DNA of 64,000 bases, taken from assembly GCF_949628265.1 (NCBI RefSeq), contig NC_088787.1, forward strand, positions 1,664,501 to 1,728,500. Reading direction: 5' to 3'. The notes under the pieces are model-generated. The model searched no databases. It was not told where the DNA came from and saw only the letters and a list, made by a program, of their open reading frames with translations. Both the position numbers and the translations under genes were made by a program. The DNA is from Cloeon dipterum (Eukaryota > Arthropoda > Insecta > Ephemeroptera > Baetidae). Positions 471-57,994 of the stretch are shown one piece after another (the first letter of the stretch is position 1; every line of letters begins with the position of its first letter).

Positions 471-2336
471 TCAGAAGCGTGACGCGGTGGCGATTGAGGG
501 GCCGACGTCGTCGTAAATATCCTCGTCCAACTGCTCGTGCTGGACTTCGTAATACGAGGTTGCGGGCTCCGAAGGAAAACCAGACATTTCCTGGTTGTCC
601 TTCTTGGTCCGGTTGATCGTTTTCTTCAGTCCTTTCACCCAGAGTGCCAACCACAGAATAATGTAAAAGAAAATCAGATTGAGAAGGATGAAGCAGATCA
701 AAGCGAGGATCAAGTGAGATTTTTCGATGGGATCTACGTCAAAAAGGCCCCACAACAAGGAAGGCGTCTGGAAAAGGAAAGAGTTGAGTTGAAATCCTCG
801 TTAATAAAAAAGGAATTTTCATTACTTCTTCCTTAGGTTGCGGTTTTTCAGTCGGAATAACTTGAACGGCCGTTGATTGAATTAACACTTTGACAGTTGT
901 AGAAGTTTGTGGCCTCCTTGTAGGCTTGACAGTGGTCAGTTCGTATTTTTGTGTGAGATAACTCGGGTAGCTCGGGGGATTCCTTCCGCACCCTGTAAAA
1001 AAATATAATTTTTAAAGATTAAATTAAAAATTTCCAGGATTTTACCTTTGGGAGTGATGCAGTCATAATATAAATATGACTTCGCGCCGACTGCAGCGCG
1101 AAGGAGCCGAATACGTGTCGATTCATTCAACCTTCTGGTCAGTATCCAAAGATTATTGCACGCGTCAAAGGCGAAACTGAACTTGAAGCGGTAAAAAGAA
1201 TGAATAGTCGGTCGCTCATCCTAAAACAAAGCAAAATACGAATTATTAAAGACAGAATTTTAATAAATTACCATCCTAGAGAATAATAATTCTGTGATTG
1301 CCAAAAACTATACCTTGTAGAATATTTCCTCCTTGAAGGGAGCAGTGGTGTCCCAAGAGCCGACGTAGTTCAACGATTCGAGGTCAAAATACAATTTTCC
1401 TTTGTTGTCCATGAGCATTCTAAAGGATCTGGCTGTCTTATTGCTAATAACCTGAGAAGGGGTCAAAGAAGTACTACTTCTTCCTCTCCTTAAATCCGAA
1501 AGAGGAACAGAAAATAATTTGGATTCTTTCCAAGATCCCAGGTAGATCAATTGCTTGCCCTTTATTGGCGAAAGGGCAATTGAACTAATGTTGATACCCT
1601 TAATTTCGATAGCCCACGATACATTCTTCTTCAGGCTAAACACGATTATTTTTTTCGACGTATAGTCAGGAATGTACGCTAAAGTGTCGATCGGTTTCTC
1701 GTCAAGGACCAGGGACTTCAGATTCCGGTATTTATAAGCATGATTGACGGTATCATTGGTGAATTGATGGACCAGGCTGACCGAATCGCCTTCCGTTAGG
1801 TCAAAGATCCAGAGCTTAGCTGGACAAATCGAATTTCCGTTATCAACGGCCCAAAGTCGACCACAAACGTCAACCACCATGCCCGTGATTTGCTGCATGG
1901 TCCTGCAGTTTCCTTTTTCCTGTAACAAATTAATTGCAAAACCATTCTCAAGTATAATTAAATGTTTTCTTATTTGTTAATTTAGAGAAAAATAATCATT
2001 ACAACTTTAAAATGTTCTTACATGATATATCCATGAAGGAAAGGGTTTCAGTTTTGGAGCCTTTGAAGATTCAGTCAATGGCAGCCAGGTCAGGGTAAAA
2101 GGGCTGGGGTGTTTGCTCGTATTATACAAGCTGATGAACACCCTCTCCCCGTAAATGACATGCTCGTTTGGTAAAATTTTGTCGCGATTGTAGTTTCCAT
2201 TTCTCTCAGCTTCTTTCTTAAAATCTTCTGAGGGCCACACAAAGTCAAAAGACGTCCATTCAAAAACGGTAGTGAAGTTGATCGAGGCCGCGGACAGACC
2301 GAGCAGTAAAGTCAGTAGAAGGAGGAACCAACTCAT
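471..2336 (-). CDS. Yellow/MRJP-family protein with transmembrane helix and tyrosine-motif tail (519 aa)
   Basis: Coding exons are 2336-2022, 1919-1314, 1220-1046, 992-826 and 767-471, all GT-AG with consistent phases. The start is the first ATG and is followed by a signal peptide (MSWFLLLLTLLLGLSAAS). Residues 19 to about 365 carry yellow/MRJP features: TTVFEW near the N-terminus, PFPSW at the end of exon 1, GNC...GRLWAVDNG and PAKLWIFDL in exon 2, and FAFDACNNLWIL in exon 3. This family forms a secreted six-bladed propeller in known members. Exon 4 is a Thr-rich stalk. Exon 5 has a hydrophobic helix at about 438-463, basic residues (KGLKK), then a tail with YYEV and YDDV. The tail stops early compared with the paralogue at 55946-57994, with which it shares exon structure. 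Function of the tail is unproven. Confidence 0.87.
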
Positions 2337-4685: not shown

Positions 4686-4728
4686 TCTTTTATGAATTTC
4701 AATTATTTTTTCAAAATTTCACAGAGCC

Positions 4729-5819
4729 ATGAATACTTTTCCCCTTGTCGTCGTATTGCTTTGCCTCTCCGTCAGCTTCACTACCGTCTACGATTGGCCG
4801 TTGAAGAATATGGACTACGAGTGGCCGTCCGTGGCGAACAGAACGCAGGCCTTGAGAGATGGAACTTTCAAACCAGAGAATATTGAACCTAGTTACATTG
4901 CGGTATTTGGGGACAGGCTTTTCCTCAGCCTGGCAAAAGCTGTTGGCATTCCCGTCACTCTGGTGACAATTCCGACCAGCAGCGTGTCTCGTCCAAACCT
5001 TGCTCCATTTCCGTCCTGGGAGATGCATGTAAGTTTGAGGATTACGAATGATTATTTTCTTGTCTGTTCATGACGACTTATAAACACAGATTTCGGAAGG
5101 CTGCAGTGCTGGAAGTGGACGCCGTCGGCCGGCTTTGGGTTCTGGACGGGGGCAGCAAGAATTGTTCAGCCAAACTGTGGATTTTCGACCTGAACAACAA
5201 CGATAAACTCGAACTGGTGCATCAGTTGCCGGTTTCCTGGCCCCTGCATGACCTGGCGCTGGTCGAGACGTCCGAAGAAAGGTTCGCCTACATCACACAT
5301 CGTCGTGTTCAGCTTGAAGACCAAGCAATCGTGGACAGTAGACACGCCTGGAATTCGGAGCTTCTCGATTGCCATTTCCCCTGCTCGTCAGGAGGAACCG
5401 AGACAGCTCTATTTAAGCGAATTCTACCCTCCTAGGTTGTATTCCATATCTGCAGCCGCGCTAGGAAACGGATCTCGAACTGCCTATCCTAAAAATATTG
5501 GAACTTGGTCTAAAAAACCATATAGAACGTTGGTCGACAGCAACGGGACCATGTATGCCGCCTTTTTGGACGTGGGCTTCATGTCCACTTGGAATACTTC
5601 CCAGCCATTTCACGAGCAGCGTTTCTATGAGGTAGAAGCCAAATATTTTAATTTGTATTGAACTGATCTGATCATTTTTAGATTAAAAATGTGCAAAGAT
5701 TGAGGCCGGTTACTTTCGCCGTGGACTCGTCCAATAATGCATTCTGGATGATGGAAATTTGGAAAGAATCATGGAGAACTTGGAGGCGCAGACTTCTCAA
5801 AGCTCCAGGTTCTAACTAA
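4729..5819 (+). pseudogene. Yellow/MRJP-family pseudogene (two small deletions in exon 2)
   Basis: Exons are 4729-5028, 5090-5631 and 5682-5819, with good splice sites. Exon 1 encodes a signal peptide (MNTFPLVVVLLCLSVS), TTVYDW, VFGDRLFLSL and PFPSW. Exon 2 starts with EGCS, then the frame shifts before VLEVDAVGRLWVLDGGS, as if several codons of the usual GNC..LQ.V segment were lost. A second shift occurs after ERFAYIT, where the frame moves to HIVVFSLKTKQSW and the usual 6-8 residues between them are missing. Exon 3 is open to a TAA and ends RLLKAPGSN, with no membrane helix. Exon 2 length (542 nt) is not a multiple of three, unlike paralogues. An assembly error could mimic one shift but hardly two with missing conserved residues. 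Confidence 0.75.
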
Positions 5820-7141: not shown

Positions 7142-10100
7142 TTAGCCACTTTTCGGTAACACCTCAAGATACTGCACCGACTCTGTTGGCTTACGTCCCG
7201 AGTTTTCGTTCCAAGCCGGTCCAGAAGAAGGTCGTGGTCCGACGTCATCGTAAATATTTTCCTGCTCCGTTTTACCAACTTCGTCATACACCGGTTCCGA
7301 TGGAATTCCCGCGTTGGTGTTTACCAGATGCAAAGGTACCTCGTAGGGCTCAGGAGAAGGGTTCCTCGCAATGACGTAATCGTAGTCAGCCGAGGTCAAA
7401 GGCTCAGGGTGAACTTCTGCGTACAGCGATTCATCAGGATTCTCAGGTCCAGCCGATTCGGAATTTTCAGGCGCGACGTCATCGTACACCGGGTCGTCCG
7501 GGAAAACGGAAATTTCAGCACGATTGTCCATCGAAATCTGCCTCATTCTTCTCATTCTCAGGGTCAGCCACGCGATGGCAGTGCAGCTCAAGACCAAGCA
7601 ACTGAAGCAACACACGAGCAACCAAATCAGAATTTTGTTCAAAGACTGACTTTGGACAAGAGCAGCACAACCACCGCTTGTTTCGTTAGAATTCAGAGCC
7701 GATTCGGGAGTCCCAGTCTTGCTTTTCGGCGTTTGCATGCTTTTCACGGCATCTGAAGTAGTAGTCTCTTTATTCACGTTAGTCGTAGACAAGGTTGTGA
7801 GGGGAAGGGCAGGCGAGTGCTGGGTAGGAGCTCTGGTAAAAATCCGAAAAATTTGCCGATTTGAGTCTTCTGTAGGAATTCTCATCGAGGTCTTTGAAAC
7901 AGGAATCCAAGAAGACGTGGTTACTGATTTTATTCTTCCAGGGCGATATCTTCGAATGGGCTTCAAATCTGTAATCAATGCAGTTGAACATACGTTAAGA
8001 TCAAGTGTTGAAAATCGGAAGATAAATTTATTTTAGAAAAATTATGCTAATAGTTAAAATTTCAATAATTTTAGACGAAATAACTTAATTAAAACTAATA
8101 TATCGTGGCAAAATAATATTTTACAGAAATAATGACCAAATTAACTTATGTCTGACAGGTGTTGATCATATCATACACCAGAATATGGTTTATTTAATAA
8201 AGCATAATTTTATTCTTTTCTAAAATTGGTAATATAATTTGGTGAGTTTTTATCCAGCAAAGTTCTAATGAAGATTCCTAAATTAAGGAAGAACTCAGAA
8301 TATTTGACAAAAACCTTTTGAATTTTAAGGGCGGGAAAAGTGTTTGAATATTGGAGTTTAAAGGACTGAATTAAATGAAATCATGGCTTAACTATAGGAT
8401 TCTTTTCCTCTCTGAATAAAAATATTCTTTAAAAAAGTATTAAATTTTTAGAATCAAACAAGTCTATTGTATATTTTTCGCACTTGAATCAAAATGTAAC
8501 AATAATTTAGGACTAAAAATCAGAATTTTATATCTGAAAGTCTACATTTAAATAAAATATATGCGGTAAAACACAACATTATATCGTATTATCCTTGCAA
8601 CGGAAAGTGTACTTGGATTTTATTTACCTGTGGACGTGCTGAATAAATACGGTTCTGCGCCGACTGCAGTTTTGAGTAGTTTATACCTATTCTTACTCCA
8701 AGTTTCATTTCTCTGCGTCATCCATAAGATCCCGTGTGCGTCCAAGGCAAAAGAATATGGCCGTATAATAGACAAGTTTCCGACCTAAAAGGGTGCAGAG
8801 ATTTGATGTTGTTTTCCTGACAAAGCATAAATTTTTTGGGAATATTTAATATACTTTCAAAATTTAATTGTAAATTTCCACACGATCATATTTATACGAA
8901 AATTTTTACAGTAGATCTCGATAGTTGAATTTCAACAAACAGGGTTCGTCAATTGTAGCAATGCGTAGAAAAAGCTATCGTTATGAACAAAATATTACGT
9001 GATTTGAATTTAACATCATAATAAAAACTTAATTGAACTCTTATCGACCATATACTGCATTAATCTCATGATAATGTGTACACAACTGTATTAAATTATG
9101 CTGCCTTTGTGCAGCTATGTATAAGCACCAGCCGTTAATTCTTCGGAATTAGCTGGACTTCCAAAGATAACAAATAAATATTCTTCTTTAAAAAAAAAAT
9201 TTCTTTATTTTGCAAAATTTCAACAGTTTTTGGGGACAGTTAAAATTTTGATATTTTTAGGAAAATATTACCCCATGAAATCGCTGCTCACGAAATGGCT
9301 CCGAAACATTCCATTTGGAGAGATAATTCCGGTAGTGAAATGCAGCATACAAGACATTGGCACTGTCGATTAACATTCTGTAAGGCTCTCCAGTCCATTT
9401 TCCAATGAATTTCACAGCAGCAACACTTTGGCCTCCATTTTCCAGCTCAGACACAGAAACTGAATAGAGTTCTTTGGTCTCATATCTATCAAGGTACAAC
9501 TGTCTCGATTCGCTGTTAGCAGAGAGGGCCAACGAATGCCAACGCTTCCCTGGTGTTTTAACTGACCAGGATTGGTCCATTTTTCGGTTGTAAACTATGA
9601 TGTGCTCAGAATAATACTCCGTGATGTACGCAAGGTAATCGTCTGGAGTTTTGTCCAGCACCATATCACGCAGCTCCTTTCTATAATAAGAGACGACTGT
9701 GCTCGGGAACTGGTGAACGCGCTCGGTTTTGTCGTTCTTGAGCAGGTCCAATATCCAAATTTTTCCCGGACACAAGCCGCTACCATCATCAAGCACCCAC
9801 AACCGCCCATCAGGGTCCGTTTCCAAACCGCAGGCCCTCTGAATAGTCGTGCAGATGCCTTTTTGCTGGCAAGAGAAATGAAAATCGAAATATATTGAAG
9901 CAGAATATTCAATGGATCTTGTTCAAATATCGGGAATAAATTATAAAAGCAGAAATTAACTAACTATTCTTTTAATATTTTCAAATGAAAATCCATTTTT
10001 TTTTGCTGAATAATCTTTGGCTTTTGTCTCGTTCATACAAGGGAGAAGCAGATAAGCTTTATTACAATCGAAATCCTTCATAGAACATGACCAATATAAA

Positions 10101-10685
10101 TATAGAAAATTGGGGAGAAGATGCATTTTTCTAAAAAAAATTATTCTATTTTTAATCACTCATTGTCAGAGCAATAAAGGTTACGAGTATTGTGATTGCC
10201 TAAGAAATAATTTGCGTGTATTCTAAAAAAATGTGGTAATTTGATCAAATTCTAGAGTTTTTTTTAAGGCGTCAGTCTTGGAATTTGCATTTCATAAATA
10301 AGGTGATTGGAAGTCAAATTTTCCCAATTTATGCTAATAGAAGCTCAAAGTAGTATTTCATTCAGAGACTTACTTGTAAATGCCACGATGGAAAAGGATC
10401 AAGCTTTGGAGGTGCAGACGACGTGCCGCTCGTTGGAAGACTCACCAGAGTTGCGGGAATTCCGTCATTCAAATTAAGGCTAAGAAACAGCCTTTCTCCA
10501 AAAACAGCAACGTATTCAACAAAAACTTTCCGTGGGTTAAAATTTTGTTTCATCCGTTCATTCGAAGTGTCCGCTTCTGGTGGCCAGATGAAATCGAATT
10601 CATCCCAATCGTAGATGGTTTTGAAGTTAGTGGCGTTTGCCAGGCACAGGCCAAGCAAAAAGATGGCGGCAACAAACGGAGACAT
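7142..10685 (-). CDS. Yellow/MRJP-family receptor-like protein with multi-tyrosine cytoplasmic tail (629 aa)
   Basis: Coding exons are 10685-10374, 9865-9272, 8784-8628 and 7968-7142; phases 0,0,1 match the paralogues. The signal peptide is MSPFVAAIFLLGLCLANA. Residues 19 to about 354 are the MRJP domain (FKTIYDW, FGERLFLSL, PFPSW, GRLWVLDDGSG, KIWILDL, FALDAHGILWM). Residues 355-465 form a Ser/Thr/Pro-rich stalk. A hydrophobic helix spans about 466-491 and is followed by RMRRMRQ. The tail has eight tyrosines, six as Y-x-x-V: YDDV (516), YAEV (537), YDYV (550), YDEV (582), YDDV (594), YLEV (621), plus YEVP (563). These resemble SH2-docking sites, and SLYAEV and VQYLEV fit the ITIM-type pattern. 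A type I receptor-like role is inferred. The single 827-nt last exon encodes stalk, helix and tail together, unlike the two-exon version in the other membrane forms. Confidence 0.9.
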
Positions 10686-22589: not shown

Positions 22590-25099
22590 ATGGAAACCAA
22601 GGAACTATTCAGATGGAGGAAAAAAGCGAAGTTTATCGACTCTCCCGTGGAAAGAGTCGCGAGTCTGGCCGATTTTTCAAGGCGGTATTTCAGCTTACAA
22701 GAAGTTTGGGATTTGCGTGAGTAGCTCTGACCATATTTCTCGCACTCATGTAGTTTTGGTGGGGAAAATAGTTTGCGCGTCGCGCTGCACTTCTTCAAAA
22801 AATGTCTACTTTACTTTATTTCGACCATCAAGAATCAATTGGTGGGCTCAGAAACTGCGTCAAAGACGGTCTTTATATGAATAACTCGGCTATGTAACAA
22901 CTATAGCTTTCTAAAAGAATTTAAAAATATAATTTAATTATTTAAATAGGTTTTCTCAGGATCTTGCAGTATTAATCCTTTTTAATGCTCTGAATTGGAA
23001 CTTTCAGCGCAAAAACACCGATCTTTGTTGTTTTTCTGCTTGATGGGGGTCAGGTGTTTGAAACCGATGAGGAACACCGAGGAATTCCAAACACTCATGC
23101 TGCCAGCGTTCGAACAGGTGCTGCACACAAACATAACAGTTCTCGACCTGACTGGATTCGTGTCATTTTTCCCTAAATTGCAGAGTGTCGCACTCACCAG
23201 AGCGGTAACTTTTTACTAGTTATTTGTTTAGTTCTTTAATTTAACTAATAAATTTTAGACCATCTTCCGGATTTCCAACTTCTTACCAAACCTCGAGAAG
23301 CTAATGATAAAGCGGGACAGAGCCCTGAGAGAAGAGCCAAACGACAATTATCAGAGTTCAGACGAAGAGGTCTTGGATGCGCTGTGCCAGTTGAAAAAGC
23401 TGATCGTGCTGCAAATGGAGGTGCTGGCCTTCGACCTGCAAGACTTATTTACTTTGGGAAAAAAGCTGCCAAGGTTGAAATACCTGAGCACCAACCTTAC
23501 CAAAAATTTAAAAATGAACTCCGTCCAAGAGCTGCAGATGAGCTTTACGCAACTCAAAGTCTTTCTTTTCTGCTCGAATGCGGACTGGGAAGAACGCCAG
23601 TTATTAAGGCGACTCTTCATCGAAAACCTGAAAAAGATACAAGTCGTTGAGGATTTTTCCAGTCAATTGTGTGCAACGAACGATTGTTTCATTTTACCTG
23701 CACTAGGTACTCCTGGAAAGTCAAATTTGCGTCATTTAACCCTCGACTACGACCTTGGACCTGAGCCTGCTGACCTTCACTTGAAGTATCCTCGAGTTAC
23801 ACACCTCAAGGTGAATTTTTAGACGTCTCAGCCAGCCACCGCCTTGAAGAACGTCTTTGACGAAGTTTCTGAGCACACCAAAAGATTCCTGAGGGTCAAA
23901 TTAGGTAAAGATGACATTTTTTCCGACCACAACTTCTAGAACCTTTTCCCGCCAAAACAACATGAATGCAAGAAGGGCGCAGGGCTGGCTGGATCCGGCA
24001 AAGAAGTCATTCGTATAGGTGGTCTCTCAGCAAGTGCTCAAACCAGCTATGACGGATGCGCACTTCTCGCATTCATATTGTTTTGGCGGGAAAAAAGTTC
24101 GCACTTCGCGCTGGACTTTTTGGTTAGAAAAATATTCACTTTACCTTATTCGACCCTCAGGAATCGATTGGTGCTGTCAGAAATTAAATATATTAATTAT
24201 TTTTTTAATGACTTCTAAATTTTAGATTGACTGGTCGGAATTTGGGAATTACGAGAACAATAAGCTTCAACTAACCTCTTTATTGAAATTCTCGAATATT
24301 CAAAGTCTGGAATTGACGTACGGAGTGCCTACTGCATTTGTTTACAAACTTATCACGAAATACGGGCCGAATCTACTCGCTCTCTACGTGGCTGACGGTT
24401 GCCCTCAAATAGACCTGACATACAATGACATATTTAACTTTTGCCCAAAGCTGGAGAAACTATGTCTTGATGGGAAAGGCACGGAGGAGCAAATTGACTC
24501 GTTTGCTCAACTGAAAGAACTCAAGCTGTGTCTACATTTCAACTGGTGAGATTTCGTTTATTCATTACTGCAATTATACAAAATAAATGTATGACGAAAA
24601 GTTAAAAAAGCATACCTATCAATCTATTGTTTTATATAACAGCTTTGGAAAACATTCTCCGACCTTATTCAATCTCCTGTCTGCAACGGACCTGAAAAAA
24701 TTGGAGCTGTTTGGGCGATTCGAGGACCAGGATGACCTGAGAATGCTTACATCCATGGTTAAATTCGGTCAAATCTTGCTCAATCTTGAAAATTTGGTCG
24801 TCAATTTGAACTGGTTCACCTTGATGAAAATAACAGAAAAGAAGGAAATTTATTTCAAACAGACGGTTGAGTTTCTCTTCGTTGCGATGAATTATTTGGG
24901 AAGAAGGCTGACCAAGGTTACATTCTCCCTGAACGATTGCATCGAGTACACGCAGCTGGCCAGATGCCTCAGGGAAAACGCTACGGAAAAGGAAATGGTA
25001 AGAACTAGCCCCCTTTTCCGAGGTGCAAACAGCAAGAATCTTGGATGGATTGTAGACGAAGACCTAATCGCCATGCTTGAACAGCGCAGGGTGGACTGA
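22590..25099 (+). CDS. LRR-like (RNI-type) protein, divergent paralogue A (550 aa)
   Basis: Exons are 22590-22716, 23008-23204, 23259-23810, 24226-24545 and 24643-25099. Exon phases (1,0,0,2) equal those of the three paralogues at 26101-28161, 28615-30706 and 46014-48090. The protein has leucine-rich stretches with irregular spacing (ITVLDLTGFVSFFPKLQSV, NLEKLMIKR, LKKLIVLQM, IQSLELTYG, LEKLCLDGK, LKKLELFGR), like F-box-associated LRR proteins, but no clear F-box was recognised. It shares the FxYKLITKYGPNLLALYV/VNKFIRxYGPKLETL element with the paralogues. It is much more diverged from them than they are from one another. Intron 1 contains half, and intron 3 all, of a foldback element. Function unknown. 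Confidence 0.85.
22725..22871. mobile_element. Foldback element, half copy 2
   Basis: Only the right arm is present: TTTCTCGCACTCATG, a TTTTGGTGGGGAAAATAGTTTGCGCG block, then CTTTATTTCGACC..CAAGAATC.ATTGGTGGGCTCAGAAACT to CAAAGACGGTC. It lies in intron 1 of the LRR-like gene A, starting close to the donor site. Confidence 0.65.
23852..24184. mobile_element. Foldback element, full copy 3
   Basis: Arms GTCTTTGACGAAGTTTCTGA...GATTCCTGAGGGTC and CGACCCTCAGGAATCGATTGGTG are inverted, with the inner CCCGCCAAAACAACATGAATGC/GCATTCATATTGTTTTGGCGGG pair. It fills most of intron 3 of LRR-like gene A. Confidence 0.72.
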
Positions 25100-25713
25100 T
25101 TATATAGATTTTGAGCATCGTGATAGTGGAAAAATAATGTATAAATTTACGCTTAAGGTTTTACTATTAGCATAAAATTACAGCTTTTCTCCAACATAAA
25201 CTAACGCTTTTTGTGAAATTTTAATAAACAATAAGCGATGAATGAAAAAATAAACGGTTCTTTTATTTATATTTATGTCCTCTCCTTGGGAAAGAAAATT
25301 TAAATTAATGACATGATGCTAGGATTAAATTTGAATTGTTTTTATTAATCAAAATAAAGCTTTAGTCTCCACTATTTGATCACGTGGCAGCAATTTCGGC
25401 GCCAACAATATTCTGATGACGAGGCAGCACCTGATTGGTTCATGACACATAGAACAAGGGTTTGGGAAAGGAGTTGTATGCAATAGCCAAGTATTTATCG
25501 ATATTCAGCGCAACAAATTTATCTAATCAAGCTTTTTAGCGTATTTTTTTAGTAAAAACCCATTTTTAAACTCAATTAAACATTTTAACTCTGTTTGGAG
25601 AAAAGAATTTTACGTTCCACGTTTACTCCGTTTCTCACCTCCACCAGGCGAGATATGATCATGATCGATTCAGCGTTTGAGCCCGATCTCCGTTAAATTT
25701 TCACTGATCTGTC

Positions 25714-25869
25714 ATGATACCTGCTAAGTTTTTGGTTCTGGACACTCCGGACAGTACGAAAATGAACGTGTACGGGAACATGGACTTGCTGAAGAATTGT
25801 TCCTCAACGTCGGAAGTGCGGACACGCGTGAGAGGCGTATTTTCCTTCTGGTTATGCCTGACTGAGTGA
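25714..25869 (+). other. Short ORF or possible orphan first exon (51 codons)
   Basis: An ATG opens a frame that begins MIPAKFLVLDTPDSTKMNVY and holds a GTGAGA donor after SEVRTR. No partner exon or family match was recognised. It lies between two LRR-like genes in otherwise empty sequence (25100-26100). Confidence 0.2.
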
Positions 25870-26100
25870 GGCGTTAATACATTGTTATCATTTTAAGCAT
25901 ATGCATGTTCTTCTTTTTTTGGCTTTTTTGTTTCGTAGGGATATAAGTATCAAATTGTTTTATTAGTTAAAATCGATGAGAAAAGGATACATTGGGATTT
26001 AATTCTGTATTTCAGCAAAGTCAGATATTTGATTGTAATAAAGCTTTAATGATTTAACAGCCTGAAGACAGAAACAATGCATCATAAAATCCCCTTCTAA

Positions 26101-28161
26101 TTAATTAGAAAAATAATTTTTCTCAATAGGAATGAGGAAATCTACAAGATTCGCATCTAAGAGCATTAGCGCGGCTGCATAGTACTTATTGATAAATATG
26201 AAATCAGAGTCAAACGGTTGCAATTCTTTGCAGTAAACTTCCAAGTCTAGATCAAAGTTGATTAAATGCGGGAGAAATGCTGAAGCATTTTTGATCATTT
26301 CACTAAGTGCATTAAAGGTGGCTATAAAATTTTGGTGCTCCATTAGATTGTACAGTTCAACAATATGATAGTTTCTCGCGCACAGGGATTGAAGTTTCCC
26401 GAGGATTGTCTTCTTGGCAATCATGTCCGAAACCTTCTTCAGGTCATCCACGTCGAAGTTCTCGAATTGGAATTTTACTACTCGTAAATCCGGTGCTTGG
26501 ATTACGTTGGACAGGCAGACAGGTCGCCCCCTAAAAGGTGAGAATTTTTGATAAGCGAGATTTAATATGGATTCATTAAACTTCGCACCAACTAGGGTAC
26601 CAAAAGAGCTCCTTTAGTCTCGAGAAGAAATGCAAGGGTTCACCATCGTCAACCATGTCGAGATTAATCAATGCCAGCGTTTCTAGCCGTGGACAGGACT
26701 TGAAGAGGCTCTTGAACTTCAGCCGTATGTCATTAGTTTCAGAAGCTACCAATATGAGCGTCTCCAGCTTTGGACCGTATCTTCTGATGAATTTATTTAC
26801 TGTTTCCAATGACGTAACTTCCAGCAGGACCAAGCTTTTTATATTTTGGAACTGAAGTATTGTTTCAATTTGAGAATTGCTCTCATCGTCGTCAAAATAT
26901 ATCTAAAACAAAATAAATTTTCAATAATTTTTGTAAAAATCTAAGTTTTCTTCTACCTTGAGATGGGTAATGTTCGGGAAAGCCCTGTGCAGCTCAACTG
27001 TGCCTGGCATTGCGCTCAAATGTCGCAGAGAAGAGACTTCCGAGGGGATTTGAGAAATAAATCGGTCTTCAATGTTCAGTTGAGATTCACCTTGAGGAAT
27101 CTTTTCCACAGCAATGAGATTTGGCAAGTGTTTGATGCACTTTTTCCACAGATTTTTACTATGTTTCTTAGGAGAAACACTTTCATCCTTTGAGAATGAA
27201 TCAAAGAGGAAATATTGTAGGTTGGAAAAGCTTTCTTTAAAGTCTTCAACATCCTCGAAGTTGGTATCAGAGTCGAAATTCAAACTGACGTCAAGGTACT
27301 GCAGATTCTTCAGCTCATTTCTGCACATTTCCTTCACTTGCTTGTAATCAACCATGCTTGATCTCAACACCAGCTTTCTAAGCTTTCGCAGTTTTCCTAT
27401 TTCCGTGATGGACACCGGAAACTTGTAGGGTTTCGGAAAATCATTGTACGGACGCTCTGGCTGGACAATGGTCAGAGAGATTAGATTCGGTGCACTTGTC
27501 GTGATAATTTTCAAAATCTGTAAAATTCAGAACATAATGCAAAAATTTTAGATGTGTCGATGGCAAAATTAGGTGCCAAGGTCAATTTTAATATTAAAAA
27601 CTGGAATTTCAGTTGAAAGTTTTTAACCTTGATAAGTTTCTTAGTAATTTTATTTAAGAAAATATATTTATATTTACTAAATTCAAATTTAGTTTAGGAA
27701 GAAGAAACGTGCAGTTTGTATGTTGACAGTGATTTTGGAATATTTAGAAACAATTGATAAATATTCGAATTACCTTATCGAATCTGCCAGGACCAACGGC
27801 CAACAATCCCTTAATTTTAATATCTTTAATTTGAGCACAGAGCAAAAGTTCAAAGGCATTGATGCGTGAGAACATTTCTTTCTCTTCCTCATCGATATGC
27901 ACAAACTTCTGGCAAGTCACCTTGTCCAACAGTTTTTTCCTCAAAAGAGAAGCTGAAAATTTTCAATATTTATTTTGTTGGAAGAGAATCAAATTATATC
28001 TACTTACGTAATTTTGTTAATTTCTCTTTGTGGTCCGAGTCGTTGAGGAACCATTTGATGTTTTTCACTATTTTCCGCGTTGAAAGTTCAAGCAAACTCT
28101 TATCCCGACCAAGATTAAGCAATCTTCTTTGGGCCACAAGAAGTTTCGTTCCATCGTCCAT
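26101..28161 (-). CDS. LRR-like protein, paralogue B (545 aa)
   Basis: Exons are 28161-28008, 27952-27774, 27517-26957, 26902-26589 and 26530-26101, with phases 1,0,0,2. The N-terminus (MDDGTKLLVAQRRLLNL) is charged and helical; exon 2 carries VTCQKFVHIDEEEKEM. Exons 3-5 contain degenerate leucine-rich repeats: PNLISLTIVQ, LRKLRKLVLRSS, LKNLQYLDVSLN, LSNLQYFLF-like, FPNITHLKV, LETLILVA, PRLETLALINLD. No F-box, signal peptide or membrane helix was seen, so a cytosolic or nuclear protein is likely. The neighbouring paralogue C has the same orientation and nearly the same exon lengths, indicating tandem duplication. The function is not known; LRR surfaces usually bind proteins. Confidence 0.88.
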
Positions 28162-28614
28162 GGTGGAATAATAGGAAATGAGACACAACGTGCCGCTCAG
28201 TTGCTTATATTTTTATTGAAATGTTCATGCTGTTTATTGTTCTGAGAGTTGGAATAGACAAAAATAAAAATTTAAACACAATATTATTTCACAACTTGTT
28301 ATTTTGATCTTCAATTTTGATACTATGTTAATTTGAGACCTTTTATGAGTTAACTTTGAAATATAACAAAATATTATGCTGTTGTGTTTTACCTGGCCTT
28401 AATAAATTTGTTTTTGAAATAACTCCGATGCCGAAACAATATACAGGCTCTCAATCTGCAGCGAACATTTCCTTGTGAAAGACACAATTAACGACTCTCG
28501 TGATGCACTAAGCATTTATATTTATTAATTAGATACATTCATTAAAAATAAGAACAGTTGATTACATAATTTATTAAATGAATTACACTGCTTACAATGA
28601 AACCTCAGTCCTCT

Positions 28615-33554: not shown

Positions 33555-33589
33555 TTTTCAAATCTAAAAGAGGATGATCAGGCTGTGGA

Positions 33590-33830
33590 AATGATCAGCC
33601 ACGAAGTAAATCGTGAAACGATCGGATCTGCCAGCTAATAATTCCTCAAGGACTGGAAAGAACGTGCGCTCACTATTACATTTGATAAGCGAATGGCCAC
33701 AATGCGTGCAGCTAAACAGGGTATGAGAAAAAACAGCTGTTTCCCGCCTGAAGCCTGAACATTCTCCTCTGCCACCTTCAGGCGAGTTTAGGAAGTGCGG
33801 CCGGGCGTGAAGTGATCGAACAGCTGTTTA
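33590..33830 (-). promoter_or_regulatory. Conserved upstream module of ZAD-like gene E
   Basis: Shares with the upstream regions of genes F (36630-36890) and G (40970-41220) the ordered blocks CTCTGCCACCTTCAGGCGAG, AACAGCTGTTTCCC (a CAGCTG E-box) and GATC.GATC-like sequence near ATCGTGAAACGAT. Conservation in non-coding sequence suggests a duplicated promoter. Confidence 0.45.
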
Positions 33831-33839
33831 GTGTAGGAA

Positions 33840-43290: not shown

Positions 43291-43299
43291 ATTTGCATG

Positions 43300-48762: not shown

Positions 48763-49989
48763 TCAATTATCTTCGGGCGCGTCATATTCGTCATATTCAT
48801 AACTACTTTCATATACATATTCTACTTCCGTAGGTGCAATAACAACTTCAGTTTTAAGAAGTTCGAACCCTCCATCGAATCTTATCAGAAACCAGACATC
48901 ATCGCGTTCGTCAACGGTGAATCTTGCGTACCATCGCACAGGTGACAGTTGTTTATCGTCCTGAAAAGGAAATTAAATTAGCACTGGAGTTTTTTTCCTA
49001 TAGATTTCTTTGAAAATATCACATACTCGAAAAGCCACTCCCTGCCAAAAGGAATAGTTGGTGTTCCATGAGCCAACTGCAGTGTCTCCTCTTAAGTCGA
49101 AGTACAAAATTCCCTTGCGGTCCATTACCAGTCTAAGCGAAACCGAAGTCTTGTTCGCAACTAGTGAGGGCGTGAGAACATTCTTCTTCCTTTCAATCAG
49201 ATCGGAAACCAGTATCGTGTACACTGCCGGTTCTGTTCTTCCCCTAGAGCTGAGATAGAGTAACTTATTCTCTCCTACCGACGAGACGGCCATTCCACTC
49301 AAGGGACTGCCTCCAATCATTCCTACGAACCACGTCTCTTTCGAATTTAAGCTGAACACAATTACACGTCTGTAGTTTTCTTCTAATATGAACGCGTAGA
49401 CATCGTTTTCTTCTTCATATAGTGCCAAGCTGCCCAAGTCCATTTTGAAATAAGGAGAAGAGTAGACGGGGATGTCGTGCACAAGCACATCCACGTCGTT
49501 GTCGTTCAGGTTGAAAATCCAAATCCTACTTGATCGACATTTCCCCCAATTTTGATCGACTACCCAAAGGTGGCCGCGGCTGTCCACTTCTATGTCCTTG
49601 ACATTTTGCAAGGTGGCGCAGTCTCCTTCTTTCTAAATTTTTAATTTTATAAATATAATATAATGAAAAAATTAAAGACTTACATGCATTTTCAGTGACG
49701 GGAATGGTTGAAGTGGTGGAGATTGTAACTCCGATTCATAGCGCAGCGAGGTGAGGGTCACTCGAATATTCGACGATTTTGGAAAACTGATGAAGAGCCG
49801 ATCTCTGTACACGGCAATGTCTCCCACGACCGCGTTTTCAGGGCTGTAGAATATCCCTCCCAGATCCCCATTACTTTTTTCCCCGCTGTGCGACGAAAGG
49901 TTAAACGCACGCCACGCAAAGAATGAAATAATGTTCACACGGGCCGTCGAAAGGCCAAAAATAATTGCAAGAAGAATGAAGTGCTTCAT
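48763..49989 (-). CDS. Short yellow/MRJP-family protein, array copy 1 (369 aa)
   Basis: Exons are 49989-49684, 49632-49027 and 48960-48763, phases 0,0. The signal peptide is MKHFILLAIIFGLSTA. MRJP features are GDIAVYRDRLFISF, QPFPSLKMH, GDCATLQNVKDIEVDSRGHL, RIWIFNLNDND, YAFILEENYRRVIVFSL and VDERDDVWFLIRFDGG. No membrane helix. The C-terminus after the domain is short, acidic and tyrosine-rich (EYVYESSYEYDEYDAPEDN), unlike its three tandem neighbours. Expected to be secreted. Relative to classical yellow proteins the last blade is abbreviated, since exon 3 encodes only 65 residues. Confidence 0.85.
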
Positions 49990-50403
49990 CGTTGAGCTGT
50001 CAAAACAAGACTATGCCTTAAAATACACTAAAAAGGTTTGTTCATATTGTACTTTGAGCTCTTCGAGGTTCGCAAATATATAAATATTTACTCGACACAT
50101 AGTCTTTTGGATTCTATAATGTGCTATGCAAGGAGCTGGGTTTTGGGTTTTTTAATCAAATGAACAAATTATAAATCGATGTTATTATATGCAAGTTTTA
50201 TTTTGAGCAAGAAATGACCCTTAAATTTTACAACAATTAGCTCTGGTTTTAATAATAATTGCAAGACTAGATGTAACACAACACAGATGTTTTTCAAACA
50301 GACGAAATATGTATTTCATATAAAAGTTGAACAATCAGGTTCACGTCACTTATTGTGATAAAAATCCTGCCCTTTTCGATCATAGAGTCAACCACAAAAC
50401 ACA

Positions 50404-51626
50404 CTACACTAAATCCATGATCAATTTTATCTCACGGTGATTGGGCACGAACTCGGCTTCATAAATATCAATTTTCCGATCAGCCAATTCAGCAACAACT
50501 CCAGATGTAAGGAGTTTGAAACCACCGTCGAATCTTATCAGCAACCAGACATCATCGAGTTCGTCAACAGTGAATCTTGAATACCACCTGTCAGGCGAAA
50601 GTTGTTCGTCCTTAAAAAGAAATTAAATTAGCACTGGAGCTTACTTCCTTTAAAATATTTAATACTTGATAAACCACTTCCTCTTCAAAAAGAGCACTCG
50701 TGTCCCGTGCGCAAAATACAGTCTTTTCTCTTATGTCGAAATACAGCATGCCTTTGCGGTCCAATATCAGTCTGTACGAGCCTGAAGTCTTGTTGCCGAT
50801 TAATGTGGGCGTGAGAGGATTGATCTTTCTCTCAACCAACTCGGAAATCAGTACGACATACAGTCCTGGTTGAGTCCTTAGCCAAGAGCTGAGGTAGAGT
50901 AATTTATTCTTTCCTACCGTCGAGAGGGCAATGCCACTCAAGGCAATACCCCCAATGTGTACAATCCGCGCCTCTTTCGAATGCAAGCTGAACACAACCA
51001 ATTTTCTGTAGTTACGTTCTACTATGAACGCGTAGGTATCGTTTTCTGCTTCATATATTGCCATGCAGCCCAAGTACATTCCGAGAGGATATGAAGAATA
51101 GATGTGATCGGGGAGGTCGTGCACAAAAACACTCACGTCGTTGTCGTTCAAGTTGAAAATCCAAATCCTTGATCGACATTCCCCCCAAGTTTGATCGACT
51201 GCCCAAAGGTGGCCGTGGCTGTCCACTTCTATGTCCTTGACATTTTGCAAGGTGGCGCAGTTTCCGTCTTCCTGAATTTTTAATTTCATTAATATTTTAA
51301 AAAAAATAAAAGACTCGACTCACGTGCATATTCAGTGACGGGAATGGATGAAGTGAAGTAAAATTTGAACCAAGGCTCCGCCAGGCGAGCGTCACAGGAA
51401 CACTATCCCTTTTTTCAAAACTGATGAATAGGCGGTCTCCATACACGGCAATGTCTTCCACAACCGCGTTGCGAGGCCTGTAGCGTATCCCTTTTAGTTC
51501 CTTATATTTAATTTTTCCATCGCCGGGCTTTGAAAAGTTAAACGCGGGCAACGTAAAGTAGGGAATAAAGTTGACAGAGGACGCCGAAAGGCCGGATACA
51601 GTCGCAAGAAGAATGAAGAGCTGCAT
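50404..51626 (-). CDS. Short yellow/MRJP-family protein, array copy 2 (371 aa)
   Basis: Exons are 51626-51324, 51271-50666 and 50610-50404. The signal peptide is MQLFILLATVSGLSASS. Typical blocks are EDIAVYGDRLFISF, HPFPSLNMH, DGNCATLQNVKDIEVDSHGH, RIWIFNLNDND, GSYRLILDRKGMLYFD and VDELDDVWLLIRFDGGFKLL. The C-terminal exon runs to 68 residues and ends with IKLIMDLV; it is the intact reference for the broken exons of the next two copies. No membrane helix. Secreted, possibly ligand-binding by family analogy. Confidence 0.86.
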
Positions 51627-52187
51627 CGTTGAGCTGTCAAATCATGACTGTGCCTTAGAATATATACAAACATAGAATTGTACTTTGAGCTCTGGAAAAC
51701 AAATATTTAGATAGTTGACACCATAGTATTTGGTCTCTGTGTGCTATGTAACCGGCTGGGTTTTTGGAAATATTTTATTTATTAATTTCCTTGAACACGT
51801 TTTGATCGAGAGTCTATATAGATTGGATTTGATTTCAACCATAACGTTAGGTCCTGCTCGAAAGTAAAATGAAGTTTATGGGTTTCTAATTAAATGAACA
51901 AATTAAATCGGTGTTATTATGCAAGTTTTTAAATTTTACAACAATTAGCTCTAGTTTTCATAATATTTGGAAGTCCATAGATGTCATACAATACAGATGT
52001 TTTTCAAACAGACGAAATATTTCATATAAAAGTTTAACAATCAGGTTCACGTCGCTAGTGATAAAAATCCCGCCTTTTTCGATCATAGATAGTCAACCAC
52101 AAAATACCCAACACTCTGTACACTTAAACAATGATCAATTCTCGTCTTCATAAATATCAAATTTCCGATCACCCGATTCACCTACAA

Positions 52188-53342
52188 CTATCTAGATGTA
52201 TGGAGTTTGAATCCTCCATAAAATCTTATCAGCAACCAGACATCATCGAATTCGTCAATGGTGAATCTTGAGTACCATCGTAAAGGTGATATTTGTTCTT
52301 TGTCCTTAAATAGAAATTTAATTAGCAATGGAAATTTATTCCTTTAATGCTTTTGAGAAGATATAACGTACTTGAAAAACCACTCTCTCTCTAAAAGGTA
52401 AGTTGGTGTCCCATGCGCAAAGTACAGTCCAATCTCTAACGTCGTAATACAGCATGCCCTTGCGGTCCAAGATCAGTCTATACGAGCCTGAAGTCTTGTT
52501 GCCAATTAATGTGGGCGTGAGAGAATTGATCTTCCTCTGAACCAAATCGGAAACCGGTACCGTATACAGTTCCGGTGTTGTTCCTTGCCAAGAGCTGAGG
52601 TAGAGTAATTTATTCACTCCTACCGGCGAGATCAGGGCCATGCCACTCAAGGATCTGCCCCCTTCAATGCGAACACTCCACGTCTCTTTTGTTTTCAAGC
52701 TCAACACATGCACTACTGATCTGTAGCTATTTTCCACCATGAACGCGTAGGTATCGTGCATTTCTTCATATAGTGCCAAGGTGACAATGGTATTTTCCAG
52801 ATATTGATATGGAAAGATGGAATAGGGAAGGTCGTGCAAAAACAAAACCTCATCGTTGTCGTTCAAATCAAAAATCCAAATCCTTGATCGACAGTCTTTC
52901 CAACTATGATCGATCACCCAGAGCTGGCCACGCATGTCCACTTTTATGGCTTTGACATTTTGCAAATTGGCGCAATTTCCTTCATCCTAAATTTCAAATT
53001 TTATTCATTTAATAACAAAAAATAAAAGACTCGACTCACATGCATATTCAGTGAATGAAATGGATGAAGTGAAGGAAAAAATAAACCAAGGTCCAGCCAG
53101 GTGAGGGTCGCTGGTATACCAGACATTTTTACAAAGCTGATGAATAGCCGGTCTTCATACACGGCAATGTCTTCGACGAACGCGTTGTGAGGGCTGTAGA
53201 TTATCCCTTCTATTCCCTCATAATTACTTTTTCCATCGCCGGGCTTTGAAAAGTTAAACGCGGGCAACCTTAAGTAAGGAATTAAGTTGATAGAGGCCGC
53301 CGAAAGGCTGGACACCATTGCAAGAAGAATGAAGAGCTTCAT
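52188..53342 (-). CDS. Short yellow/MRJP-family protein, array copy 3, C-terminus truncated (344 aa)
   Basis: Exons are 53342-53040, 52986-52372 and 52304-52188. The signal peptide is MKLFILLAMVSSLSAAS. The MRJP body is intact (DEGNCANLQNVKAIKVDMRG, RIWIFDLNDND, GSYRLILDRKGMLYYD, FTIDEFDDVWLLIRF). Exon 3 ends early at a TAG after KLHTSR. In copy 2 the homologous sequence continues VVAELADRKIDIYE; here two extra bases before that point shift the frame, and the shifted frame still encodes VVGESGDRKFDIYED. The core domain may still fold, so it is given as a CDS with a truncated end. Confidence 0.75.
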
Positions 53343-53984
53343 CGTTGAGCTGTCGAAACTAGACTATGCCTTAGAATATATGAAAAAGATCTATTATAAG
53401 TTTGTACTTTTAGCTCTGGAGATTCAAATGTGTGTAAATATTTAATAACTTGACACAGGCTTCGGCTTCTATATATGTGCTATGGAACCAGCTGGATTTT
53501 GGGATATATTTTTTTTAATTTCCTTGAACATGTGTCGTTCAAGAGTCTGTTTTTTAAAGCAGCCATAGATTAGATTTTGATTAAAACCACAACTTTATAG
53601 TTCCTGCTCGAAACGGAAATACAGTTTTTGGGTTTTCCAATTAAATGAACAAATTAAATCGAGGTTACTATGCAAGTTTTATTTTGAACAAGAAATAATC
53701 CTCAAATTAAACCATTAAATTGACTGTCACGTAATAAAGATGTTTTTCAAATAGACGAAACTTTTCTTTTCAAAGTTAAACAATCAGGTTTGTGTGTTGC
53801 TCATCGCTACAGGGCTCGTGATAAAATCCTACATTTATTCAACCATATAGAACCAACCAAAAAAAAACCCCAAGACTAAAACGCTGTTTACACCTAACCA
53901 TAACCACTAATCAAATGTTCCTCGACTTGCTTGGGCACGAAATCGTCGACATCTTCATTATTATCAAATTTCCGATCAACCAAT

Positions 53985-55143
53985 TCAGCAACAGCTCCAG
54001 ATGTAAAGAGTTTGAATCCTCGATCCATCGAATCTTGACAGCAACCAGACATCATCGAGTTCGTCAACGGTGAATCTCGAATCCCATCGTGTATCCGATA
54101 TTTGTTCTTCGTCCTTAAAAAGAAATTAAATTAGCACTATTTCTTTAAAATTGCTGTGAGAATAAAACATACTTCAAAAACCACTTCCTCTTTAAAAGGT
54201 AAGTTGTTGTCCCACGCGCAAAGTACATTCCTATCTCTAACGTCGTAATACAGCATGCCCTTGCGGTCCAATATCAGTCTATACGAGTTTGTAGACTTGT
54301 TGCCGATAAATGAGGGGATGAGCGAGTCTTTCTTCCTTCCAACCAAATCGGAAACCAGTACCGTATACAGTCCTGGTGTTGCTCTTTTCCAAGAGCTGAG
54401 GTAGAGTAATTTATTATTTCCTGTCGTTGAGAGGGCAATGCCACTCAAGAAAATGCCCCCTTCAATGCGTACACTCCACGTCTCTTTCGATTTCAAGCTG
54501 AACACATGCACTAGTGATTCGAAGTTAGTGTCCACTATGAACGCGAAGGTATCGTTTGCTTCTTCATTTACTGCCAAGCTGACCGTGGTCATTCCGAGAA
54601 TATTATTTGGAAATATGTAATTAGGGAGGTCGTGCACAAACACAACCACATCGTTGTCGTTCAAGTTAAAAATCCAAATCCTTGATCCGCAGTTTTCCCA
54701 AGTTTGATCGACTACCCAAAGGTGGCCGCGGCTGTCCACTTCAATGGCATTGACATTTTGCAAGGTTGCGCAGTTTCCGTCTTCCTGAATTTTTAAATTC
54801 ATAAATAACATACTTAAAAAAAGAAACGACCCACATGCATATTCAGTGAAGGAAATGGATGAAGTGAAGGAAAATGTGAACCAAGGTCCAGCCAGGTGAG
54901 GGTCACTGGAAAACCAAATATTTTTAGAAAACTGATGAATAGCCGGTCTCCATACACGGCAATGTCTTCCACGAACGCGTTGTGAGGGCTGTAGCTTATC
55001 CCTTCTATTCCTTCAAAATTACTTTTTCCCTCACTGGGCAATGAAAATTTAAATGCGCGCAACTTAAAGTAGGGAATAAAGTTGACAGAGGACGAGGACG
55101 CCGAAAGGCCGGACACAATTGTAAGAAGAGTGAAGAGCTTCAT
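53985..55143 (-). CDS. Short yellow/MRJP-family protein, array copy 4, frameshifted C-terminus (349 aa)
   Basis: Exons are 55143-54835, 54784-54173 and 54113-53985. The signal peptide is MKLFTLLTIVSGLSASSSS. Features are EDIAVYGDRLFISF, HPFPSLNMH, DGNCATLQNVNAIEVDSRGH, RIWIFNLNDND and VDELDDVWLLSRFDG. After FDG, four extra bases (within GATGGATCGAGGATTC, where copies 2 and 3 have GATGG.GG.TTC) shift the frame, ending in WSCC and TGA. The other frame continues with GFKLFTSGAVAELVDRKF, matching copy 2. The final blade is therefore damaged; function is doubtful. Confidence 0.72.
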
Positions 55144-55215
55144 CGTTGAGCTGTCGAAACTAGACTTTGCCTTAGAATATATGAAAAAGATCGGTTATAG
55201 GTTTGTACTTTGAGC
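55144..55215 (-). promoter_or_regulatory. Core promoter shared by the short yellow array copies
   Basis: Upstream of copies 2-4 a near-identical block (TATATTCTAAGGCA, then AGTC, then GACAGCTCAACG directly before ATG) is seen, for example at 55144-55190, 53343-53390 and 51627-51670. The TATATTC run is a plausible TATA element. Confidence 0.45.
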
Positions 55216-55945: not shown

Positions 55946-57994
55946 CTAGCGGTAGGACTTTGCGCCGAGAGACTGGACATTAAGATAAATTTCTGATCCA
56001 GCAGGCGATGGAACGACTTCATCGTATATATCCGAGTTATAATAAGGCCTGGAGTTCCCGAAGCCGACTTGGCCTGACGTGGACGCGATTGGGGGACCAA
56101 CGTCGTCGTAAATTTCCTCCTCCAAATCGTCGCGTTCGACTACGTTCTCAACAGGAATAACAGACATTTCCTGGTTTTCCGTCTCCGTCCCTGTGACGAT
56201 TTTCCTCAATCCATTCCCCCATATGGCCAACCACAAAATAATGCAACAGGAAACCTTGCTGGAAACTACCAAGCAGATCAAAGCGATGATCAAGTGCGAT
56301 TTTTCGATGGGATTGACGTCAAAAAGGCCCCACAACAAGGAAGGCGTCTGTAAAAGGGAAGAATTGAGTTTAAATTTCGGCAATCGATATGGAATTTTTC
56401 TTACTTCTTGCTTAGGCTTGGGCTTTTCAGTTAAAATTACTTGAACGGCCGTTGTTTGAATTGACACTTTGACAGTTGTAGAAGTTTGTGGCATCTTGGT
56501 AGGTTTGACAGTGGTCAGTTCGTATTTTTTTGTGAGGTAACTCGGGGGAATTCTTCCGCACCCTGTAAACACAGAAAACATTGGTTGAGAATCTACCTGA
56601 CAGTTAAATAATTATTATTATATAGAATTAAGTATGTCCCCTTGATTTAATTATCTGTAAAACCCCCTTTCGGTTGGTGTTAATTAGAGTATTTCGCGTG
56701 CTTTACCTTTGGGAGGGATGAGGTCGTTGTATAAATAGGACTTGACGCCGACTTCAGCGCGAAGGAGCCGAAAATTCGTCGTTTTTGTATTATCTTTGGA
56801 CATTATCCAAAAATTATTGCACGTGTCAAAGGCGAAATTGAACTTAAAGTCGTAATGCGTCAGTCGCTCGTCCTACAACAATGCAAAATAGGAACCTTAA
56901 ATTACGAATTTAGATACCGTTTATGATTATTTAATATTACTCAGGCATTGAATTGCCCACAGTTAAAATTTTAACCAGGAAAAATACCTTGTAGAGTTCT
57001 TCTTCCTTGATTTGAGCATCTCTGTTGGTGTCCCAAGTTCCGACGTAGTTAAACGTTTCAAGGTCAAAGTACAATTTTCCTTTGTTGTCCATGAGCATTC
57101 TCGAGGAGCCGGCTTTCTGATCGCCAACCAGAGTGAGGGTCAAAGGAGTATTTGCTCCCCTCATCCTTAATTCCGAAAGAGGAACTGAATACAGTTCGGA
57201 TTCTTCCCGAGATCCCAGATAGACCACTTCTTTCCCCTTTATTGGTGAAAGGGCAATGCACCTAACGTGGATTTCCTGAATTTCGATGGTCCATGAAACG
57301 TTCTCCTTCAGGCTAAAACCGATCAGGTTTCCTGATTCATAGTCATGAATGTACGCCAAAGTGTCGTTCGGTCTCTCATCAAGGACCAGGGAATTGAGTT
57401 CCCTGCTGCTATAAGCATGATCCACGATTTCATTGGAGAATTGATGCACCAGGCTGACCGAATCTCCTTCCGTTAGGTCAAATATCCAGAGCTTAGCTGG
57501 ACAAGTCTCATTTCCGTTATCGACGGCCCAAAGCCGACCACAAACATCGACCACCATGCCCTTGATTTGCTGCATGGTCTTGCAGTTTCCTTTGATCTGT
57601 TAAAAACGGCAAAACCATTCTATAATTTCACCCCAGACTCTAAATAATATCATTACAAATTAAAAAAAAAAACACTTACTTGCAATTTCCATGAAGGATA
57701 GGGATTCAGTTTCGGAGACTTCGAAGACGCAGTGGATGGCAGCCAGGTCAGGGTGTACGGAAATGGGTGTGTTTTCGATTCGTAAATGCTGATAAACACT
57801 CTCTCCCCGTAAACGACATGCTCGTGCGGAACAATGGTTTTGTGATAGTAAATTCCCTTTTTCGAAGCTTCTTGCTTTTTTTCTTCTGAGGGCCACTCAT
57901 ATTCGAAAAAGTCCCACTCAAAGACGGTAGTGAAGTTGATGGAGGCCGCGGACAGACCGAGCGTTAAACCCAGTAGAAGGAGGAACGGACTCAT
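55946..57994 (-). CDS. Yellow/MRJP-family protein with transmembrane helix and full tyrosine-motif tail (549 aa)
   Basis: Exons are 57994-57680, 57596-56988, 56872-56707, 56562-56405 and 56347-55946, 550 codons in all. The signal peptide is MSPFLLLLGLTLGLSAAS. MRJP features are TTVFEWDFFEYEWPSEE, PYPSWKLQ, KGNCKTMQQIKGMVVDVCGR, PAKLWIFDL, DTLAYIHDY and FAFDTCNNFWIM. Exon 4 is a Thr-rich stalk (TTVKPTKMPQTSTTVK). A hydrophobic segment at about 434-459 is followed by GLRK. The tail has YDDV (496), RPYYNSD (518-519), YDEV (524), YLNV (537) and a terminal SYR. YLNV matches the Y-x-N pattern that Grb2/Drk SH2 domains bind. It is the closest relative of the gene at 471-2336 and keeps the tail which that gene lost. 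Signalling is inferred. Confidence 0.9.

Follow-up and report, generated by a model that had tools for sequence, protein, structure and literature searches.

Can a Yellow/MRJP propeller serve as the outer domain of a signaling receptor? A typical DCE/Yellow protein is described as a single MRJP domain behind a signal peptide, suggesting extracellular localization (PMC6678240). The gene considered here occupies minus-strand positions 10685-7142 of a 64,000-nucleotide stretch of the Cloeon dipterum genome (the window, to which all positions refer unless contig C1 or C2 is named). As predicted from the DNA, its four exons have GT/AG borders and join in frame without a break into 1,890 nt, encoding 629 amino acids and a stop, exactly as a first-pass annotation had placed them (Table 1). 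A CAG border immediately before the ATG hints at an additional 5' untranslated exon. MRJP is the sole domain to pass its Pfam cutoff (E = 8.7e-15; 55.3 bits against a cutoff of 19.8), with no immunoglobulin or C-type-lectin ectodomain recognized, and hydropathy rises above 1.6 only at the N terminus and in windows covering about residues 462-493. With both an N-terminal hydrophobic stretch and a helix at 466-491, followed directly by RMRRMRQ, the protein departs from the usual anchorless Yellow/MRJP form. Structure prediction, carried out on the paralog P0005 in place of the spliced focal protein, gave a six-bladed propeller like those of MRJP1 and LJM11, a helix at 413-455, and disorder in the part equivalent to the stalk. 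Translation, Pfam, and hydropathy thus bore out the signal peptide, MRJP domain, stalk, and helix with its basic flank that had been proposed earlier, and translation of exon 4 returned the same tail of 138 residues and eight tyrosines, six in YxxV and one in YxxP. By its predicted sequence, the product is a single-pass type I membrane protein composed of a Yellow/MRJP propeller, a membrane helix, and a tyrosine-rich tail, a build that the exon join, the paralogs, and hydropathy all support.

Table 1. Features of the focal gene and its relatives in the window.
Feature	Positions	Strand	Basis
Family member: signal peptide, MRJP, helix, short tail with YYEV and IYDDV	471..2336	-	gene model
MRJP gene, exons 1-2; no recognizable tail exon downstream	4696..5661	+	ORFs, tail search
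Exon 4: stalk, membrane helix, tail, stop	7142..7968	-	spliced translation
Predicted cytoplasmic tail, residues 492-629: YDDV, YAEV, YDYV, YEVP, YDEV, YDDV, YLEV	7145..7558	-	translation, motif count
Membrane helix, residues 466-491	7559..7636	-	hydropathy
Ser/Thr/Pro-rich stalk, residues 355-465	7637..7968	-	translation
Exon-3 splice donor GTAAATAAA; read-through gives G-K-stop, AATAAA overlaps donor	8619..8627	-	sequence
Exon 3: final propeller strands, residues 303-354 plus one base	8628..8784	-	translation, paralog loci
Exon 2: main MRJP propeller, residues 105-302	9272..9865	-	translation, Pfam, paralog matches
Exon 1: ATG, signal peptide, first propeller strands, residues 1-104	10374..10685	-	spliced translation
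Four tandem MRJP genes that look secreted; Pfam MRJP match tested on first	48973..55194	-	downstream frames
Family member: MRJP, helix, tail with IYDDV, IYDEV, IYLNV	55946..57994	-	gene model

A receptor reading depends on the tail exon belonging to the propeller gene. Among 20 paralog loci with tails that were fetched from the genome, exons 2, 3, and 4 lay in order on one strand in 19, and exon 1 was recognized in 18. The database proteins P0002-P0006, P0011, P0078, and P0091 likewise combine MRJP, a helix, and a multityrosine tail, and P0078, an isoform by its NCBI name, aligns at 94-98% identity with C2:35886017-35888424, where its four pieces repeat the exon pattern. Together, the 19 loci and the database proteins speak against the possibility, named in the first-pass annotation as one that would refute it, that the last exon is a separate gene. 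A search with the focal protein returned 101 proteins, none of them a record of the gene's own product; near-full-length relatives were 56-60% identical.

The focal gene has many relatives. When the genome was searched with exon 2, 150 of 371 candidates were scored and all 150 matched at E ≤ 4e-48; the union with the exon-2 rows of a second search gives at least 191 related places. Adding the MRJP-profile places among the matches listed, of 199, brings the number to at least 225, with 202 on C2 and 195 of these below 5.5 Mb; this count leaves out the Yellow cluster at 18.95 Mb on C1, the highest-ranking rows of canonical Yellow type, and a number of second-half rows. Two features escaped the first-pass annotation: the 191 or more related places, and the concentration of propeller variability on loops of a single face. 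Tail-exon searching produced 85 matches, of which 80 were used (58 reaching the tail and 22 mainly stalk and helix) after five that were pieces beside or near other rows had been dropped. An exon 2 was listed in the same orientation no more than 6 kb upstream for 40 of the 58 tail places and for all 22 stalk/helix places; the exon-2 listing is incomplete, since C2:1414766 (L058), among the 18 tail places lacking one, has an exon 2 when fetched, and at C2:4118803 (L055) the fetched stretch contained none. Fourteen of the 20 fetched loci gave models free of internal stops, two of these without a modeled exon 1, five (L046, L049, L051, L052, and L057) were interrupted by stops or breaks in the frame, and L055 could not be modeled. 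Within the window, a helix followed by a tyrosine tail is present in three modeled genes (the focal gene, 2336-471, and 57994-55946), and the four tandem genes look secreted because their downstream frames show no recognizable tail.

Protein searches place this predicted receptor family, so far, only in Cloeon dipterum. Of the 101 proteins found with the focal sequence, P0001-P0095 were from this species and the other six were distant Yellow/MRJP proteins with no such tail; a family-profile search returned 56 proteins, all from Cloeon, and no such tail elsewhere. Both searches scored the best ~8,000 candidates by shared words. Other mayflies may simply lack annotated proteins in the database searched.

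What the tail might do is suggested by its tyrosines. Counting from R492, these are Y516 (YDDV), Y537 (YAEV), Y550 (YDYV), Y552 (YVIA), Y563 (YEVP), Y582 (YDEV), Y594 (YDDV), and Y621 (YLEV). Six YxxV motifs compare with a mean of 0.68 in 20,000 shuffles, none of which reached six, and four Y[DE]xV motifs compare with 0.14 by shuffling. YDxV occurs four times in the focal tail and one to four times in 21 of 22 modeled tails, the remaining one being the frame-broken L051. ITIMs follow the pattern [SIVL]xYxx[VIL]; the focal tail has two such motifs (SLYAEV and VQYLEV), and modeled tails have zero to three, with none in 8 of 22. Most tail tyrosines are kept in most paralog tails: across 17 tails (aligned without L046, L051, L057, and W1, and without L049, whose decayed tail has lost several tyrosines), tyrosine columns were on average 0.85 identical to the focal residue compared with 0.69 for other columns, ranging from 1.00 at Y516, Y594, and Y621 to 0.29 at Y550. 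The deeper P0078-type branch also has a C-terminal QYLxxLP and a YDDV-type motif.

Such a tail had been proposed as a docking site for SH2 proteins of the SHP or Src type. Its SH2-docking shape holds up; four of the tyrosines are YDxV rather than plain SHP or Src sites, matching the Nck SH2 consensus pYDxV(AYST)x(DEC) (PMC2661883), which YDDVAPE at Y516 fits in full. The genome has 37 SH2 exon matches. A Nck-type sequence lies at C1:18768281-18768992, the best of 16 matches, in two pieces 56 and 63% identical to human Nck SH2; the comparison covered the SH2 part. Borrowing of the tail from another protein was considered and rejected, since a search with residues 460-629 returned six proteins of 224 candidates, all Cloeon MRJP proteins; this search needs shared exact words, and distant tails could therefore be missed. 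Comparison of dN/dS across paralogs found no stronger purifying selection on the tail or its motif codons: median pairwise values were 0.61, 0.60, and 0.82 for exons 1 to 3 and 0.60 for the tail, and pooled tail values, with L049 again set aside, were 0.59 in motif and 0.59 in intermotif codons.

Selection on the propeller is uneven. Variable positions cluster on the bc and da loops of one predicted face, faces having been assigned from the modeled strands of P0005 and general propeller topology rather than from coordinates. For 14 focal-clade genes, dN/dS was 1.04 (0.81-1.36) on these loops versus 0.48 (0.38-0.59) on other loops and strands; all such values come from sequence pairs sharing ancestry, uncorrected for gene conversion, and face variability was gauged within this family, apart from canonical Yellow proteins. 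At 35 sites chosen for being variable in the other clade, 27 of them on bc/da loops, focal-clade dN/dS was 1.90 (1.27-2.82), which 0 of 5,000 random site sets reached. Restricting the chosen sites to gap-free columns gave 2.32 (1.26-4.29), and restricting them to ten intact genes gave 1.69 (1.06-2.68); both restrictions together gave 1.94 with an interval that includes 1 (0.87-4.22), reached by 3 of 5,000 random sets. The 14 genes include L046, L049, and L051, in which exons 1-3 remain open, and the intact set drops these and L043. Taken whole, the bc/da loops were not above 1 (0.78-1.04 by data set; 0.78 under both restrictions). Three bottom loops likewise reached entropy 2.3-2.7 in the second clade. 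Because the independently chosen variable sites have dN/dS above 1, these data point to diversifying selection at part of a putative recognition face.

Family members also differ in how they end. A tree of the propeller part with 113 rows holds 26 long-tail, 22 short-tail, 3 GPI-like, and 62 helix-free forms; it is limited to rows of 340 to 660 amino acids and leaves out P0021, P0033, P0040, P0060, non-Cloeon rows, L043, L054, and L057. Form labels need 36 changes on this weakly resolved tree, against a minimum possible of 3, and its strongly supported inner branches (27 of 110) alone force at least 9 changes of the long-tail label; the forms are therefore interleaved. Some rows that appear secreted may be shortened predictions, and the C-terminal residues of P0061 are those of the frame-broken L051. 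At the end of exon 3, 10 of the 14 focal-clade genes (W2 and L039-L051) carry the donor GTAAATAAA, where reading through would reach a stop after two codons and an AATAAA overlaps the splice site. The first 15 intron bases there are more alike between paralogs than the bases that follow; intron 1 too is fairly well conserved where it begins, and the annotated protein P0041 ends in TGK. A membrane/secreted switch between splicing and polyadenylation at this donor is possible, and we offer it only as a lead.

With propellers that diverge fastest on a single face, this large family may represent a class of insect recognition receptor that has yet to be described. Our preferred reading, tentative and close to evenly balanced, is of a lineage-specific, diversifying family that is probably immune or phagocytic and would signal through phosphotyrosine and Dock to actin. 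Its computed basis is the architecture, the family size, the three sister forms, the face variability, the kept tail tyrosines, and the Nck-type SH2. The variable face would bind variable ligands, such as the surfaces of microbes and parasites or cells that are non-self; clustering would lead Src-type kinases to phosphorylate the tail; and the YDxV sites would then recruit Dock/Nck and through it N-WASP and actin, as nephrin does. YAEV and the C-terminal YLEV may recruit Csw/SHP-2 or similar as a possible brake, and secreted and short-tail sisters may serve as decoys, opsonins, or partners. The most likely setting would be blood cells or barrier epithelia engaged in recognizing and engulfing their targets. 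Counted against this reading are a tail no more constrained than the whole propeller, the whole-loop dN/dS and bottom-loop entropies given above, the chosen-site interval that includes 1, the 5 of 20 broken loci, and the absence of the ITIM-like pattern from 8 of 22 tails; we hold it with slightly less confidence because the tail lacks extra dN/dS constraint.

The main competitor to an immune or phagocytic setting is a reproductive or adhesive one, in which the same receptors would serve reproduction, kin or allorecognition, or adhesion, with the face binding mayfly molecules and the YDxV tail again leading to actin. Diversifying selection on one face occurs in reproductive proteins too, the nephrin-like motifs and Nck-like SH2 would serve equally well, and a family found in Cloeon only, in the searches made, fits such a role. 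Interleaved secreted-looking, short-tail, and long-tail forms in huge copy number are nonetheless more like immune receptor clusters as we know them, and we consider this alternative unlikely. Scavenger or endocytic receptors that take up ligands from hemolymph or water are improbable. YxxV fits the loose YxxPhi sorting pattern, so that the motifs could be clathrin-adaptor signals with phosphorylation secondary, and a stalk with a single helix would be suitable, but acidic residues recur after tyrosine (YDDV and YDEV), as in the Nck consensus, and several spaced motifs would exceed the needs of sorting. Replacement of ligand-pocket residues also argues against uptake, and it bears on the earlier suggestion that the propeller binds amines. 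In LJM11, serotonin is hydrogen bonded by three residues that include Thr327 and Asn342 (PMC5094789). The family profile has Phe and Arg at the positions aligned with these two, the third, Phe344, falling outside the alignment, and we therefore find the amine-sensor proposal unsupported.

An ordinary Yellow/MRJP function in cuticle, melanin, or egg shell, tethered to the membrane in mayflies by a tail used for anchoring or trafficking only, is also quite improbable: MRJP membership by sequence and fold, the many sisters that look secreted, and the lack of special dN/dS constraint on the tail would all suit it, but the number of YxxV motifs lies far over that of shuffles, and a conserved enzyme would not be expected to vary on one face, with dN/dS above 1 at sites chosen independently. 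Least credible is a gene-model artefact, with a tail exon taken from another gene or a focal pseudogene; the model was built from genomic sequence only and the best database identity is 69% over 57% of the query, but the reading frame is intact, and the same exon join in paralog loci and independently annotated proteins leads us to reject it.

The recognition-receptor reading has a bolder and more doubtful extension, that the Yellow/MRJP propeller has been turned into a germ line-encoded, diversifying self/non-self system of some 200 or more genes, combining one hypervariable face, tails on many members directed to Dock/actin and phosphatases, matching short-tail and soluble counterparts, and possibly a switch between membrane and secreted products somewhat like that of immunoglobulin genes. 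If the family indeed serves as tyrosine-tailed receptors, it would provide a new receptor fold for phosphotyrosine signaling and a very large, diversifying receptor repertoire in an insect. Insect recognition repertoires are usually thought to be small. As Cloeon dipterum is an established model species (PMC6446309), the hypothesis is directly testable.

Relative to known Yellow/MRJP proteins, such as honeybee MRJP1, Aedes dopachrome conversion enzyme, and sand fly LJM11, the mayfly family adds a helix, a tyrosine tail, a huge size, and a diversifying face. Titles and abstracts on MRJP, royal jelly, or Yellow together with transmembrane, receptor, Cloeon, mayfly, or Ephemeroptera yielded no description of it, in line with the initial impression that no receptor of this design had been described. 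In its main text, the C. dipterum genome paper describes expanded sets of odorant-binding proteins and opsins, and neither "yellow" nor "royal jelly" appears there (PMC7250882); in two later Cloeon papers, "yellow" occurs only as a color. The parts (MRJP fold, tyrosine tails, and multigene receptor clusters) are known, and it is their combination and scale that we did not find described.

For the tail, the closest comparison is nephrin, which has three YDxV motifs in its tail (PMC11247170) below Ig-like domains (PMC12203975) and which, through three tail phosphotyrosines, forms clusters with Nck and N-WASP that assemble actin (PMC4238058). Several YDxV motifs in the tail of a membrane protein are thus common to both, four in the mayfly focal protein compared with three, with docking of Dock predicted here. 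The outer parts differ, Ig-like domains in one and an MRJP propeller from a multigene family in the other, and we know of no such multigene family for nephrin. For the family as a whole, the comparison is with KIR, LILR, and CEACAM, vertebrate multigene paired immune receptors with long-tail, short-tail, and secreted sisters. Fish NITRs are multigene immune receptors as well (PMC2442602). Judged from sequence alone, the mayfly genes resemble paired receptors in their clusters, type I proteins, variable outer domains, and long-tail, short-tail, and secreted-looking sisters, with ITIM-like motifs in some of the tails, but the outer domain that would do the recognizing is a propeller rather than an Ig or C-type-lectin fold.

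Relatives of the focal protein lie outside the main royal-jelly/Yellow (MRJP) array on contig C2 of the Cloeon dipterum genome, where smaller groups of the same family occupy C1 at 36.8-42.2 Mb, C5 at 26.47-26.49 Mb, and a separate part of C2 at 35.6-36.6 Mb. In a Yellow-like cluster at C1 18.95-18.99 Mb, several matches recur at a constant offset of 10,367 bases; this stretch was either duplicated recently or repeated in the assembly. Within the window, one MRJP exon fragment carries in-frame stops and is probably a decayed copy.

Other genes share this neighborhood (see table). Repeated copies of a leucine-rich-repeat-like protein are interspersed with the MRJP genes and look like a further local expansion; two of the three frames tested gave weak, below-cut-off matches to LRR_14 in Pfam. 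Several Cys/His-rich reading frames resemble one another and make up a second small local family; the two frames tested had no Pfam match.

Features in the window
Feature	Window positions	Strand
AATAAA and in-frame stop at focal exon-3 donor	8619-8627	
C2H2 zinc-finger protein, one open frame, 424 aa	20139-21413	
Leucine-rich-repeat-like copies	23259-30123; 46594-48090	both
Cys/His-rich frames	31975-35993; 41795-45402	both
Interrupted MRJP exon fragment	40297-40518	

The focal clade comprises 14 genes, namely the window gene and those at the fetched paralog loci L039-L051. In 10 of them the splice donor of exon 3 is overlapped both by AATAAA and by a stop codon in frame, an arrangement that could be a secreted/membrane switch. 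Four database relatives (P0065, P0073, P0077, and P0079) end in a stretch of small residues followed by a hydrophobic run, which looks like a GPI-anchor signal, and such proteins may represent an additional form of the MRJP family.
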